Assembly: GCF_000423585.1 (NCBI RefSeq)
Contig: NZ_KE384059.1
Span: 19,140 to 63,273, forward strand
Source of the DNA: Salinimicrobium xinjiangense DSM 19287
GTDB taxonomy: Bacteria > Bacteroidota > Bacteroidia > Flavobacteriales > Flavobacteriaceae
Direction: 5' to 3'
DNA length: 44,134 nt
Positions 12,747 through 44,134 of this stretch are shown here, in pieces. Position 1 is the stretch's first letter, and every line of letters starts with the position of its first letter. The position numbers were made by a program, and so were the translations under genes. The notes under the pieces were generated by a model. That model did no database searches and was not told where the DNA came from. It worked only from the letters and a program-made list of their open reading frames with translations.

Positions 12747-12758
12747 ATTTCAAAAAGA

Positions 12759-12793
12759 GTCTAGACTCTAGATTCTAATTTCCAGTCTCTTAA
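12759..12793. repeat. 7-bp-period tract, NTCTAGA family
   Basis: Five successive 7-base units read GTCTAGA, CTCTAGA, TTCTAAT, TTCCAGT and CTCTTAA. They fill the gap between the terminator and the groEL stop codon. Other intergenic tracts in the window share the 7-bp period with different unit sequences. Confidence 0.55.
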
Positions 12794-12797
12794 AATG

Positions 12798-14471
<1,674 letters not shown>

Positions 14472-17932: not shown

Positions 17933-18112
17933 AGCCCCCTAGCCCCCGAAGGGGGAATTAAATTTGTTTCTGAACTGATATCTTTTATTGCTCTTCATTC
18001 TGAGAACCTGTTTTTTATTATTTCAAATTCCGATAAACAAGCACCAAATTCCAATATGGAACGGCCTACTGAGCACCTCCAAACCATACTCCCCCTTCGG
18101 GGGCCGGGGGGC
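17933..18112. repeat. Inverted pair of CCCCC-hairpin REP-like elements filling the miaB gap
   Basis: AGCCCCCTAGCCCCCGAAGG, continuing as GGG, occupies 17933-17955, and an inverted, slightly diverged copy occupies about 18091-18112. Each contains a 5-bp CCCCC/GGGGG stem with a 3-nt loop. Between them, at 18024-18054, is a 7-bp-period tract in which CAA-type cores end exactly every 7 bases (18026, 18033, 18040, 18047, 18054). One copy abuts the start codon of the sigma-54 activator and the other supplies the TAG stop codon of miaB. I see no gene in the gap. Confidence 0.7.
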
Positions 18113-32249: not shown

Positions 32250-32322
<73 letters not shown>

Positions 32323-38328: not shown

Positions 38329-38556
38329 CCACTGATCAATAGCACCCAATCAAACAAAATGTCCTTGTATGTCTGCCAATTTCTGTTCACTGATCACTGA
38401 TCACTAGATGGAAAATACAATTTGGGCTTACAATGACCCCCAGGTCTACCACCAATTCGCCCCTCTAGGGCTGGCAAAGGCAGAACTCGAAATTCGTAAC
38501 TTTAAAATCTTATTTCTAATATCCTGTTCACCGACCACTGAACACTGACCACTAAA
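38329..38556. repeat. 7-bp-period tracts, CACTGAN family
   Basis: Within the gene-free 38206-38585 there are two perfect 7-bp arrays. The first is CACTGAT, CACTGAT, CACTAGA at 38388-38408. The second is CACCGAC, CACTGAA, CACTGAC, CACTAAA at 38529-38556. A related single unit, CACTGAT, lies at 38330-38336. Both arrays are preceded by CTGTT. The second ends 6 bases before the era -7 element. GCCCCTCTAGGGCTGG near 38460 matches the GCCCCTCCGGGGCTGG element at 44085. No gene is seen here. Confidence 0.7.
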
Positions 38557-38561
38557 ATTGG

Positions 38562-38585: not shown

Positions 38586-39476
38586 ATGGCACATAAAGCA
38601 GGTTTTGTAAATATCATCGGGAACCCTAATGTGGGCAAATCCACCTTAATGAATGCCTTTGTGGGAGAAAAGTTGAGTATAATAACTTCCAAGGCTCAGA
38701 CTACCAGGCATCGCATTCTTGGAATTGTGAACGGAGAGGATTTTCAGGTGATCCTTAGTGACACTCCCGGGATCATAAAACCGGCCTATCAGCTTCAGGA
38801 GTCAATGATGGATTTTGTAAAATCTGCCTTTGAAGATGCAGATGTATTGGTCTACATGGTTGAGATAGGAGAAAAGGAACTTAAGGATGAATCCTTCTTC
38901 AATAAGATCATACATTCAGAAATTCCTGTTTTACTGCTTTTAAACAAGATCGATAAATCTAATCAGGAGCAATTGGAAGAACAGGTGCAGCTATGGCAGC
39001 AAAAGGTCCCGAATGCCGAGATCTTTCCCGTTTCGGCTTTAGAAGGATTTAATGTGCCCCAGGTGTTCAACAGAATTGTAGAACTGCTGCCAGATTCCCC
39101 ACCTTTCTATCCTAAAGATACACTTACAGATAAGCCGGAACGCTTTTTCGTGAATGAGATCATCAGGGAAAAAATACTTATCCACTATAAAAAGGAAATT
39201 CCGTACAGTGTTGAAATTGATACAGAGGAATTTTTTGAAGAAGAGGAGATCATTCGAATGCGCAGTGTGATCATGGTGGAAAGAGAAACCCAAAAAGGGA
39301 TCATTATTGGTCATAAAGGTGCGGCTTTAAAGAGAGTAGGAGTAGAGGCCCGTAAGGATCTTGAAAAGTTTTTCGGAAAGCAGGTGCATCTTGAGCTCTA
39401 TGTGAAAGTTAACAAGAACTGGCGGAGTGATTCCAAACAGCTACGCAGGTTTGGTTATTCCGGAGACAAAAAATAA
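38586..39476 (+). CDS. era: GTPase Era
   Basis: Era is a GTPase that binds 16S rRNA and the 30S subunit during assembly. The G1 motif is GNPNVGKS (about 12-19), G3 is DTPG and G4 is NKID. The C-terminal KH domain contains the RNA-binding segment GIIIGHKGAALKRVG (about 237-251). The 296 residues are typical. An AGGAG precedes the start codon by a few bases, which is unusual in this window. der follows after 151 bases with its own -7 element, so the two related GTPases are neighbours but probably have separate promoters. Confidence 0.95.
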   Translation: MAHKAGFVNIIGNPNVGKSTLMNAFVGEKLSIITSKAQTTRHRILGIVNGEDFQVILSDTPGIIKPAYQLQESMMDFVKSAFEDADVLVYMVEIGEKELKDESFFNKIIHSEIPVLLLLNKIDKSNQEQLEEQVQLWQQKVPNAEIFPVSALEGFNVPQVFNRIVELLPDSPPFYPKDTLTDKPERFFVNEIIREKILIHYKKEIPYSVEIDTEEFFEEEEIIRMRSVIMVERETQKGIIIGHKGAALKRVGVEARKDLEKFFGKQVHLELYVKVNKNWRSDSKQLRRFGYSGDKK

Positions 39477-41024: not shown

Positions 41025-43802
41025 ATGAAAAATTTTTTATTTCTAAGCCTGTTTCTAATATCTACAGGAGCAGCAGCACAGCAATTTTCTATTTCAGGCA
41101 AAGTGGTAGATTCAGAGACGCAGGAACCTCTGGAATCGGCCACCTTATTTGTTGAAAAGCTGCAGGACAGCAGCCTTGTTTCCTATACTATTTCGAATAA
41201 AACCGGAGACTTCGTAATTGAAGGTTCTCAAAAAGTGGATACGCTACGGCTGGTGAGTACCTTTAACGGTTATAGCACTCTTTCCCGGATCATCATTCTG
41301 GAGCAGCCAAGAATTGCACTTGGAACCCTTGAAATGGAAGTGGCAAATAATATGCTGGGAGAGGTTACCGTAATTTCTGAAAGAGCTCCCGTTACCGTGA
41401 AGCAGGACACTTTAGAATTCAATGCTGCTTCTTTCAATACCCGTCAGGATGCTAATCTTGAAGACGTAATGAAGAAACTGCCGGGGGTGGAAGTAGATGC
41501 CCAGGGGAATATTACTGTCAATGGAAAACCTGTATCCCGTATTCTTGTCAACGGAAAGGAATTCTTCGGAAATGATCCAAAGATTGCTACCAAAAACCTT
41601 CCGAAGGAAATTATCGATAAGATCCAGGTAGTTGACACCAAAACAAAATCTGAAGAATTTACCGGAAAGGCAGGAAATCCCGATGACAAGACCATCAATG
41701 TTACCATTAAGGATGACAAGAATAAAGGCTATTTCGCACGTTTTACTGCCGGTGGCGGAACAGATGATCGGTACGAACTGAGTGGGATAGCAAATTACTT
41801 CAAGGACAAATTAAGGCTCAGCGTACTGGCCAGTTCGAATAACATCAACAGCGCCGGCTTTAGTATGGATGAGGTTTTTGATATGATGCGCGGCCGTTCC
41901 CGGAGCATGATGATAAGAAGCAATGGAACCTTTGCAGTCAACGGAATGAATTTTGGAAGCGATCAGGGAATTACAAAGAGTGAAACAGCCGGTTTTAATT
42001 TCACCAACGATTGGGATAAAAAATATGAACTCACCGGCGATTATTTCTACGGAAGAAATGACACAGAAACAGCGAGTATAGTAGAGCGGGAAACTTTTCT
42101 GCCTAACAGGTCTTTCTTTACCAACACCATTTCTGAAGGTAATATCGTAAATGAAAGTCATCGCGCAAATGCTGCTTTTGAAGTAAAGATCGACAGCATG
42201 ACCCAGGTTGCAATTCGTCCATCAATAAATGTAAACGACGGATTCTCCTATAGAACAAGTTCTTCAGAAAGATTGGACAATAACCGGGAACTGATTACCA
42301 CTACCGAGGACAGGGAGGATATTTACAGCTCTAACCTTAATAACAGGATAAGCCTTATCAGGAAATTCGGAAATAGGGGAGCTTATCTTGAAGCTTCATT
42401 TGAAAACAGCAATGAGCTGCAGGAAAGAGAAAACTTTTTCTTTTCTGAATTCTTCGATACCGAAGGAGATGTACTCCTGGAGACCAGGATCCAGGATCAA
42501 TTCATTGAAGAGGAAAACACAAAAGATGAATATAAGGCAGGAATAACCCAGCGCTCTGTTCTGGCCGAAAAACTTTTTCTTGATCTCTCTTATGATGTAA
42601 GCACACAAAACCAGAACAACACGCGAAGTGTATTCGAGCTCGATGAGGATACCAATGAATACAATGTTTTTAATGATCTGCTCTCAAATGACTTTGAGGT
42701 AAAGAGCTGGAAACATATTCCTAATGTTGGTCTTAACTATGAAGGCAAAAAATGGAGAGTAGGTTTTGATGTCGGGCTTCTCAATACTTCTCTAAAAACA
42801 CAGAACTTTCTTGCCGATGCAGGTTTTGAAAACAATTACAACAACCTTTTTATCAATTCCAATGTTCGATACGAAATAAAACGTGGGCAGTCGGTTTATG
42901 CATATTACCGTAACGACACAGATATTCCTTCCATAAGGGAACTTCAGCCGGTGCCGAACCTTACGAATCCGCTGAACATCATTATTGGAAATCCTGAACT
43001 GGATCCCACTTTCACACACCGGTTTAATTTAGGGTACCAGAATTTCGATTTCGCCACCCGTAGTGGGATGAGCATATATGCTTCGGCCACAATATATGAA
43101 GATCAGGTGGTGCCTTATAGTATTACAAATGAAGATCTTGTGACCACAACAACCTTCCGTAACCTCGACGGCGGACTAACAAGTTACGCGGGCGTGTCTT
43201 ACAGTAAACGTTTTAAGAAAGAGGAGCGGGAATTGAGCTATAGATTGGGAGTTTTCGGAAATTATAACCGGCAAATAGGATTCACCAACGCTGTTCGATA
43301 CAATGCAGACAGATTTGGCTTTAATCCTTCCCTAAGGCTTGGTTACAATTATGCCGATAAGGTAGAGATAAATCCAAGATACGAGCTTAGTCACAATATC
43401 GCGAAGTATGATATTAGCAACAGGCGGGAAGAAGAATACACCAATCATACCTTTGCTCTTGAAGCAACCACCTACTGGCCCAAAAATGTAGTTTTTGGGA
43501 ATGATATTTCTTTTGTCTCCTATGGAAAAGTAGCTCCGGGTTTTGATCCCACTTCTCTCCTGTGGAACATGAGTCTTGGCTATAAATTTCTGAATGACAA
43601 CGCTACTGTAAAGGCAAAGGTTTACGATTTGCTGAATGAGAATGTGAGTACCAGGAGAACAACAGGAGAGGATTTTGTTCAGGACACCCAGGAATTGATC
43701 CTGGAGCAGTATTTCATGCTAAGTTTTACGTATAAAATAAGCAGATTTGGAGGAAAAGACCCCAACAGGGGAAGAGGACGCGGCGGATTTATGGTGTTTT
43801 AG
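41025..43802 (+). CDS. TonB-dependent receptor-type outer-membrane protein
   Basis: A 925-residue outer-membrane protein. The signal peptide ends near GAAAQQ (about residue 19). A CarboxypepD_reg-like domain (about 20-105, ISGKVVDSETQEPLESATL) is followed by a plug domain (about 115-230) with the segment LPGVEVDAQGNITVNGKPV. The remainder is a beta-barrel of repeated amphipathic strands to the C-terminal end. The tail NRGRGRGGFMVF ends in phenylalanine, as is common for outer-membrane barrels. No SusD-like partner is present, so it is not a SusCD pair. The ligand is unknown. Confidence 0.85.
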   Translation: MKNFLFLSLFLISTGAAAQQFSISGKVVDSETQEPLESATLFVEKLQDSSLVSYTISNKTGDFVIEGSQKVDTLRLVSTFNGYSTLSRIIILEQPRIALGTLEMEVANNMLGEVTVISERAPVTVKQDTLEFNAASFNTRQDANLEDVMKKLPGVEVDAQGNITVNGKPVSRILVNGKEFFGNDPKIATKNLPKEIIDKIQVVDTKTKSEEFTGKAGNPDDKTINVTIKDDKNKGYFARFTAGGGTDDRYELSGIANYFKDKLRLSVLASSNNINSAGFSMDEVFDMMRGRSRSMMIRSNGTFAVNGMNFGSDQGITKSETAGFNFTNDWDKKYELTGDYFYGRNDTETASIVERETFLPNRSFFTNTISEGNIVNESHRANAAFEVKIDSMTQVAIRPSINVNDGFSYRTSSSERLDNNRELITTTEDREDIYSSNLNNRISLIRKFGNRGAYLEASFENSNELQERENFFFSEFFDTEGDVLLETRIQDQFIEEENTKDEYKAGITQRSVLAEKLFLDLSYDVSTQNQNNTRSVFELDEDTNEYNVFNDLLSNDFEVKSWKHIPNVGLNYEGKKWRVGFDVGLLNTSLKTQNFLADAGFENNYNNLFINSNVRYEIKRGQSVYAYYRNDTDIPSIRELQPVPNLTNPLNIIIGNPELDPTFTHRFNLGYQNFDFATRSGMSIYASATIYEDQVVPYSITNEDLVTTTTFRNLDGGLTSYAGVSYSKRFKKEERELSYRLGVFGNYNRQIGFTNAVRYNADRFGFNPSLRLGYNYADKVEINPRYELSHNIAKYDISNRREEEYTNHTFALEATTYWPKNVVFGNDISFVSYGKVAPGFDPTSLLWNMSLGYKFLNDNATVKAKVYDLLNENVSTRRTTGEDFVQDTQELILEQYFMLSFTYKISRFGGKDPNRGRGRGGFMVF

Positions 43803-43820: not shown

Positions 43821-43868
43821 AAAAACAATGCCTGTCAAAAATAGCATTTTTGACAGGCATTGTTTTTT
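43821..43868 (+). terminator. Perfect 22-bp hairpin terminator after the TonB receptor gene
   Basis: Bases 43821-43842 and 43846-43867 are exact reverse complements with a 3-base AGC loop, and the right side ends in a T-run. The inner part, TGTCAAAAATAGCATTTTTG continuing as ACA, is the recurrent inverted repeat of this window (copy 4), here built into a longer stem. Confidence 0.9.
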
Positions 43869-43870
43869 AG

Positions 43871-44134
43871 TATTGAGATGTTAGAATTGAGTATTGAGAT
43901 TTTTAATCAGAATTAGTATGTATAATGCTGGCGCGGATTTGCAATCCGTGCCGGGGCAAAATTGGAATTGGTGATTGTGATTTGGAATTTTGAATTCCGC
44001 GTTAAAACGCGCGGCTACCGATTGAAATTTGGTACTTGTGATTTGGAATTTGATTTTCCCGCGTTAAAACGCGGGGCTACTGTCGCCCCTCCGGGGCTGG
44101 TCTATAATTGGAATTTGCGGTTTAATTTTTCCCC
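43871..44134. repeat. Dense repeat block: 7-bp arrays and REP-like palindromes
   Basis: This gene-free end holds several elements. 43871-43912: 7-base units TATTGAG, ATGTTAG, AATTGAG, TATTGAG, ATTTTTA, ATCAGAA. 43930-43952: palindrome GGCGCGGATT-TGC-AATCCGTGCC. 43962-43995 and 44022-44056: TTGGAA-type units; in the second tract TTG cores sit at 44022, 44029, 44036, 44043 and 44050, exactly 7 apart. 43999-44010 and 44058-44075: two copies of a GCGTT-AA-AACGC palindrome. 44085-44097: GCCCC-TCC-GGGGC. The block TTGTGATTTGGAATTT recurs at 43975 and 44036, a 61-bp repeat. From 44108 another TTGGAA-type tract runs off the window. Confidence 0.75.

Follow-up and report, generated by a model that had tools for sequence, protein, structure and literature searches.

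The window analyzed here, a stretch of 44,134 nucleotides from Salinimicrobium xinjiangense DSM 19287 (NZ_KE384059.1, positions 19,140 to 63,273), is the right-hand part, up to its end, of a 63-kb contig. Several of its gene-free regions contain tandem heptamers of different sequence, and these tracts are listed in Table 1 together with the genes and other features next to them. Era is our reading of the pair of domains, MMR_HSR1 and KH_2, detected in the predicted GTPase. The outer-membrane protein is 80% identical to a protein of S. nanhaiense, the closest among the named genomes returned. The TATCTTTG box we take to be promoter-like from general knowledge of Bacteroidetes promoters. None of the tracts has an Rfam match at gathering score, the sole match in the window being a tRNA (32250-32322).

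Table 1. Heptamer tracts of the window and the features adjacent to them
Feature	Coordinates	Strand	Basis and remarks
Heptamer array, TCTAGAN type (NTCTAGA tract of the original prediction)	12754..12789	-	lag-7 block; 8 nt past groEL stop codon
groEL, array in its 3' flank	12798..14435	-	Pfam Cpn60_TCP1, E 1.8e-81
TTGGAAT/TTGGTGC-type tract, marginal	18024..18054	-	lag-7 score; without dense block
CAGTGNT-family array (CACTGAN on +), divergent intergenic region upstream of putative Era-type GTPase gene	38376..38410	-	lag-7 block
CAGTGNT-family array directly upstream of TATCTTTG promoter-like box	38524..38557	-	lag-7 block, ortholog set
Putative Era-type GTPase gene, downstream of both CAGTGNT arrays	38586..39476	+	Pfam MMR_HSR1 and KH_2
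Outer-membrane beta-barrel protein gene, ends before the final tracts	41025..43802	+	Pfam OMP_b-brl_3, E 1.4e-33
Perfect 22-bp hairpin with T-run at its end, terminator-like	43821..43867	+	inverted repeat I1
ATTGAGT-type degenerate heptamers with indels	43869..43912	+	TRF, period 7 over 43869-43898
TTGGAAT/TTGGTNN-type heptamers	43961..44134	+	TRF, inverted repeats, lag-7 score

Eight tracts of the window had been singled out in the original prediction as sharing a 7-bp period. We compared the lag-7 identity of each with that of 500 dinucleotide shuffles; the resulting figures overstate the significance because the tracts were picked by eye. Five of them score strongly, namely 12759-12793 (identity 0.61, reached by 1 of the 500 shuffles), 38388-38408 (0.79, 1 shuffle), 38529-38556 (0.76, none), 43962-44056 (0.48, none) and its sub-part 44022-44056 (0.61, 1 shuffle). 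The score of 43871-43912 is moderate (0.51, 10 shuffles), and those of 18024-18054 (0.50, 22 shuffles) and 44108-44134 (0.45, 26 shuffles) are marginal. The TTG core indeed recurs exactly at 44022, 44029, 44036, 44043 and 44050. The period cannot be called strict, however, given that the units are degenerate, that TRF needs indels to align 43869-43898, and that 43961-44080 is primarily a 62-bp unit present in two copies at 85%, with a palindrome and the 7-bp sub-period inside it. The palindrome, CCGCGTTAAAACGCG, lies at 43997-44011 and 44060-44074, alongside the heptamers. Another palindrome, GGCGCGGATTTGCAATCCGTGCC, occupies 43930-43952; three near-identical copies of it follow the orthologous gene in locus L031 (after 12766), with a partial copy in L033, and it resembles a dispersed element of the REP type. 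The palindromes located between 43930 and 44075 may be comparable to those of RAYT/REP elements. The final tract is cut at 44134 because the window stops there with the contig. Beyond the final tracts, and past the end of the window, the same minus-strand gene end is preceded by ACTGATC in L033, by CAACTGA/ACACTGC in L031 and by ACTACAG in L032.

Since the arrays are short and rare, we counted the bases covered by dense blocks, defined as 16 or more matches in 21 positions at a given lag. Across 62,198 noncoding bases from 623 kb of the S. xinjiangense genome, dense lag-7 blocks cover 1239 bases, compared with 23 in shuffled sequence (mean of five) and with at most 74 at any of the comparison lags 4-6 and 8-13. 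This comparison decisively bears out the predicted genome-wide excess of lag 7 over shuffles. Lag 14 yields 1096 bases, as expected from the same arrays, and lag 15 yields 343. A 15-bp tandem unit (CCATTCTCCAATTAA) around 5500-5560 of L100 may account for part of the lag-15 signal. The arrays are mainly intergenic: lag-7 blocks amount to 624 bp in 35,226 noncoding bases vs 213 bp in 364,495 bases called coding on the basis of ORFs. Spacing was also controlled with nine cores, each repeated three times at spacings of 5 to 12, and seven of the nine peak at spacing 7. AGTG, GGTT, TTGG and CAAT occur 9, 9, 13 and 24 times at this spacing and at most twice at any other; the CAGTG triple is found 4 times vs none, the GTT triple 42 times vs 3-14, and the AGT triple 32 times vs 1-4. 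The remaining two, TTAG (2 vs 0-1) and TGAG (1 vs 0-1), are too rare to discriminate.

The original prediction had proposed autocorrelation of all intergenic sequence as the check. In the window alone, this measure gives no lag-7 peak (z 0.8), with lag 14 at z 3.1 and lags 2 and 3 likewise; in 400 kb of sampled genome it gives a weak one (z 3.7), lower than lags 3 (6.3) and 12 (4.3). Whole-sequence autocorrelation is too diluted to serve as the test, and period 7 appears in it weakly. Such weakness would fit an accident of chance or composition, but the dense-block count and the spacing control refute this explanation, to which we assign practically no credence. The period-7 tracts are real and are part of a genome-wide feature of this flavobacterium, and tandem units of exactly 7 nt occur in it beyond chance.

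The 112 arrays of the S. xinjiangense genome reduce to 59 consensus heptamers, 22 of which are mutually at least two changes apart, and ten at least three, over rotation and strand. The units are not unrelated in the strict sense in which they had been described: a network of single substitutions joins 53 of the 59, whereas in letter-permuted sets (n = 40) the mean is 27.5 and the maximum 44. Furthermore, families succeed each other in register inside one tract, for example, AAGCACC and AAATTCC. In L098 (18778-20000), about six heptamer families lie close together in one intergenic stretch, parts of which repeat at about 300 bp. Altogether, 159 of 205 arrays could be assigned to 14 families. 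Among the 11 families with at least five loci, the columns differ in variability (chi-square p < 0.05) in ten, the exception being TTAGAAG. At most loci of the CAGTGNT, CAATNAN and NGTTNNN families, variation is confined mostly to certain columns. In the 147 CAGTGNT units, the sixth column departs from the consensus in 47% of cases and is polymorphic at 26 of 30 loci, compared with 5% non-consensus in the third column. A core shared by every family was also sought. Array-level EM scored above controls with permuted columns, but once each family was given a single count the advantage was no longer clear, the comparison of trinucleotides included; no such core is claimed because z is 2.55 and the highest of 60 controls exceeds the observed score.

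Because genes were called as longest ORFs, their starts are uncertain and their stops more reliable. Arrays occupy 16 of 113 convergent intergenic regions, compared with 3 of 160 divergent ones (p 1e-4); for the two codirectional classes the counts are 21 of 240 and 14 of 222. The arrays lie within 25 bp of a stop codon in 39% of cases compared with 21% under random placement (p 0.008), with no excess within 25 bp of starts (24% in both). An examination of 669 genes gave 62 arrays beginning in the interval from -20 to +30 relative to a stop codon, 36 of them between -9 and 0. In 57 stop-abutting arrays, agreement with the array's own phase is on average 0.24-0.29 in coding DNA farther upstream, 0.32 at -7 to -4 and 0.42 in the stop codon itself; it rises to 0.58 over the seven bases that follow and to 0.70-0.73 thereafter. 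The stop codon is TAG in 25 of the 57 array-abutting genes vs 188 of 787 others (p 0.001). A NAG(T/A)...T profile is common to the 82 stop-class arrays in their sense orientation and exceeds what permutation of columns produces (z 4.2, reached by 0 of 60 controls). Stops in all three frames occur within 35 bp in 34% of the arrays vs 17% of shuffles. Provision of such stops was set aside as a function because stop triplets show no strand preference (335 sense and 323 antisense, compared with 296 in shuffled arrays).

Location beside terminators, proposed originally as a shared property of the tracts, is not a rule: a hairpin followed by a T-run is present at 14 of 75 array genes vs 175 of 597 others, that is, without enrichment. 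Nor is there a sign that the arrays alter gene ends, the C-termini of array genes being no more variable (24% of 29 pairs) than those of other genes (21% of 244).

Dense lag-7 blocks also occur in congeners. In the two that were sampled more deeply, they cover 934 of 52,505 bp (G010, 31 when shuffled) and 1033 of 39,745 bp (G007, 6 when shuffled); in G008 they cover 172 of 7,999 bases and in G003 32 of 6,210. They were detected in 3 of 11 more distant genera, and we do not claim restriction to the genus because these samples are thin (20-40 kb each). Three consecutive CAGTGNT units are present in 8 of the 10 genomes of the genus searched, the one analyzed here included, with none in G002 and G004, and in 14 of 296 genomes across the phylum. 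The reversed control pattern was found in 4 of the 296, so heptamers of other units exist elsewhere too. In a genome of another genus of the family (L205, near the middle), a CAGTGNT array lies, apparently in frame, within a reading frame that by eye is glycosyltransferase-like. L208, from a genome of a different family within the phylum, has near its middle a CAGTGGT arm followed by a CCACTAT/CCACTAG arm, a converging layout outside the order. The core of the original prediction, a single period for many unit sequences located in gene-free DNA next to gene ends, therefore holds both genome-wide and in related species.

We compared 273 pairs of orthologous stops for which both genomes provided 50 bp or more of downstream sequence. 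Both members have an array in 15 pairs, S. xinjiangense alone in 13 and the relative alone in 8, and 237 pairs lack arrays (odds ratio 34, p 7e-12). Between the members of the 15 array-bearing pairs, consensus units are 1.8 of 7 bases apart, compared with 3.1 in random pairs. Array sites thus persist between species while their units change, a turnover that is seen between species, each represented by one genome. For instance, a heptamer array follows groEL in all five sampled species, with TCTAGA-type units in S. xinjiangense and G007, GAGTATT/GAGATTT in G008 and TTAGATT-type units in G010 and G003. The site of the array at 38524..38557 is occupied by other units in G007 and L031 and is empty in G010, G003 and G008. 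Persistent sites and fixed cores in register might mean that the arrays are bound by a DNA-binding protein, such as an insulator or a nucleoid protein, whose footprint repeats every 7 bp or 14 bp. We consider this very improbable, however, because the cores are many and different, with none common to all families beyond the control, and because arrays are rare between divergent genes.

The arrays are polar. When oriented by their G-richer strand, arrays within 15 bp of a gene boundary point outward from the gene at stops in 27 of 31 cases in S. xinjiangense (14 of 16 when motif-chosen stretches are left out), 12 of 13 in G010 and 9 of 12 in G007. At starts the numbers are small, with 5 of 7, 3 of 4 and 5 of 6 outward, respectively, and beyond 15 bp from a boundary the arrays have no clear overall polarity (18/18 and 21/35, p 0.28). 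Counts pooled over S. xinjiangense and its congeners include orthologous arrays; the polarity counts above are given per genome. By family, with the strands named by the analyst before orientation was tallied, the family-assigned arrays at stops are 60 sense and 5 antisense, and those near starts 22 antisense and 4 sense, with 24 further boundary arrays outside the families. Orienting the arrays solely by G/C imbalance gives a concordant picture (nearest-left 50 plus and 28 minus; nearest-right 24 plus and 65 minus). Across codirectional regions, with the CAAT family left out, the first third holds 25 plus and 10 minus arrays, the middle third 9 and 12, and the last third 5 and 15. The skew of non-array DNA, by class and half of the region, is at most 0.06.

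The preference of each family for one strand at stops, together with the onset of the arrays at the stop codon, the fixed core with free positions, the profile common to the stop-class arrays and the presence of an array after groEL in every species sampled, is what would be expected of selected RNA elements in 3' UTRs. Each 7-nt unit would then bind one domain of an RNA-binding protein and affect mRNA stability or termination, or else the arrays would supply stops in all frames, which they contain in excess. Against this interpretation, the same families tend to the opposite orientation near starts and in the last third of codirectional regions, so that transcription sense alone does not explain the polarity, even if the start-side evidence is small. 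Moreover, the units differ between orthologs, just 89 of 1642 genes have an array (including stretches chosen by motif), terminators are not enriched and stop triplets are as frequent on one strand as on the other. On balance, we regard selected RNA elements as unlikely.

The reversal between the two sides of an intergenic region could instead arise if the array arms were 3'-end extensions made at intergenic DNA breaks and subsequently joined, such that a G-rich arm leaves each gene and the two converge in the middle of the region, like fused telomeres. The outward polarity at both stops and starts would follow directly, and converging arms are indeed observed (for example, L095 9525-9754, a 71-bp region in G007, and L200); among consecutive arrays in codirectional regions, plus-minus order occurs eight times and minus-plus order twice. 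The GGGAATC repeats of Xanthomonas (Rehm et al. 2015, PMC4692102), as far as they are described in the parts of the source compared, form 70 and 75 convergent pairs and lie nearer to the neighboring ORF on their 5' side (28 vs 160 nt), which we interpret as the same polarity. Conversely, neighboring units share variants, as in copying within an array, the C-termini of array genes are no more variable than others, reverse transcriptases of the PF00078 type do not track the arrays, and the polarity is unclear away from boundaries and rests on small numbers at starts. Break extension therefore appears improbable to us. Bolder still, and in our judgment quite doubtful, is the idea that polar 3'-end extension in 7-nt steps repeatedly remodels the intergenic DNA of this genus, each step realigning on a short core and copying the rest loosely, with G-rich arms meeting in the middle of the region as at fused telomeres. 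If that were true, the same polarity in Xanthomonas would make polar 7-nt extension a general bacterial process that sets the preference for 7 nt.

The original prediction also proposed a common mechanism, and a single period over many units, genome-wide and in relatives, does point to a shared process. We favor, with moderate confidence, the reading that these arrays are heptameric repeats that belong with the long simple sequence repeats and that arise and are renewed through duplication in 7-nt steps. The variable columns of 36 arrays from six families were compared with order-shuffles made to pass the same detection rule. Immediate neighbors match at 0.744 vs 0.715 in shuffles (reached by 1 of 300), units two apart at 0.712 vs 0.674 (0 of 300) and units three apart at 0.680 vs 0.657 (35 of 300). 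This excess at one and two units, fading at three, is the trace expected of duplication of one or two units. A decay with distance seen earlier in long arrays was discarded as biased by selection on lag 7; arrays chosen on lag 21 show unit identities of 0.741, 0.749 and 0.752 at one, two and three units, with little dependence on distance.

A template system of the reverse-transcriptase or telomerase-like kind was considered and rejected, within the PF00078 type that the search covered, since the presence of PF00078 does not follow the arrays. No PF00078 match was found in congeners G002, G006, G007 and G008, although G007 and G008 carry arrays, and G004 has four matches without a CAGTGNT triple. 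The templated polymerase activity suggested originally is thus not indicated in this form. The variants shared by neighboring units, and the lack of correspondence between PF00078 and the arrays, make copying in steps of 7 nt the most plausible account. Slipped-strand or template-switch synthesis with a preferred step of 7 nt would duplicate units, the source presumably being a polymerase that copies with this step. The arrays would then spread through unconstrained DNA until they reach a sequence that is needed, namely, the stop codon on one side and the promoter and leader on the other, and their polarity may reflect extension of a 3' end away from the gene. No dedicated gene for array formation would be expected. 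Outward strand polarity and units with a fixed core are not predicted by simple slippage.

Several tandem heptamers in one genome are a feature of the STRR heptamers of filamentous cyanobacteria, to which the present arrays are likened by description rather than by sequence; one literature passage mentions a case in Calothrix with three heptamers. Contrary to the initial impression that there is no described system of this kind, heptamer excess and heptamer arrays are in print for Bacteroidetes, Beggiatoaceae, Xanthomonas and Nostoc, as the parts of two papers compared here indicate (PMC4679880, PMC4692102). According to these papers, Mrazek (2007) noted that 7 is the most abundant unit length of long repeats in most of the genomes in that study, and proposed a 7-nt polymerase interaction. 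Tandem heptamers beyond expectation, the hallmark of LSSR7 as reported there, are also what we find; by comparison with LSSR7 as the citing papers describe them, the units here are degenerate, many families coexist in one genome, and the start at the stop codon and the polarity have been measured. Unit duplication with a 7-nt step has already been proposed for bacterial heptamers, and our preferred interpretation is that in this genome it acts on many unit families simultaneously.

That long repeats in bacteria favor 7-nt units was noted in 2007 and is left unexplained in the parts of PMC4679880 and PMC4692102 compared. Many unit families under one period, with preferred starts and polarity, separate the period from any particular sequence and provide testable rules; the start at the stop codon and the polarity narrow down why bacteria favor seven-base repeats. 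If the polarity holds across phyla, its cause would more likely lie in DNA synthesis than in a function of one motif. The open-licence literature searched, as far as it was accessible in part, yielded no description of many families, of the stop-codon start or of the polarity in this group.

Among the closest described repeats are those of MacGregor (2015, PMC4679880), who, in the parts compared, reports TAACTGA direct repeats in Beggiatoaceae and also in five Bacteroidetes including Gramella forsetii, as well as TAACTGA arrays along with other heptamers in regions of G. forsetii and A. sublithincola. Like the present arrays, these are intergenic heptamers at gene edges; unlike them, they represent one named unit, found in the main genome for the most part immediately before start codons, and neither unit families nor stop codons nor polarity are surveyed in those parts of the source. 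The arrays of S. xinjiangense, being enriched near stops and not near starts, do not show this placement upstream of starts. An exact TAACTGA pair is absent from 816,646 bases of the genome on both strands, and TAACTGA, up to rotation and strand, is one of the 59 consensus units of the degenerate arrays.

Rehm et al. (2015, PMC4692102) describe, in the parts compared, the GGGAATC repeats of Xanthomonas and the GGGGA(C/T)T repeats of Nostoc. The former are degenerate heptamers with fixed and free columns, mostly intergenic and seldom between divergent genes, and most of them lie between the same genes in two species while varying in length and sequence. These rules are much the same as those found here, but for one unit. 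The convergent pairs and the nearness to the 5' neighboring gene have their counterpart in the outward polarity and the plus-minus excess of our arrays; the unit differs, and no exact GGGAATC pair occurs in the same 816,646 bases. In that source, each genome has one G-rich, quadruplex-capable unit type, whereas here the units are many and 5 of the 59 consensus heptamers contain GGG or CCC. ATG, on either strand, is rare among these consensus heptamers (3% of the 59, compared with 22% in permuted units).
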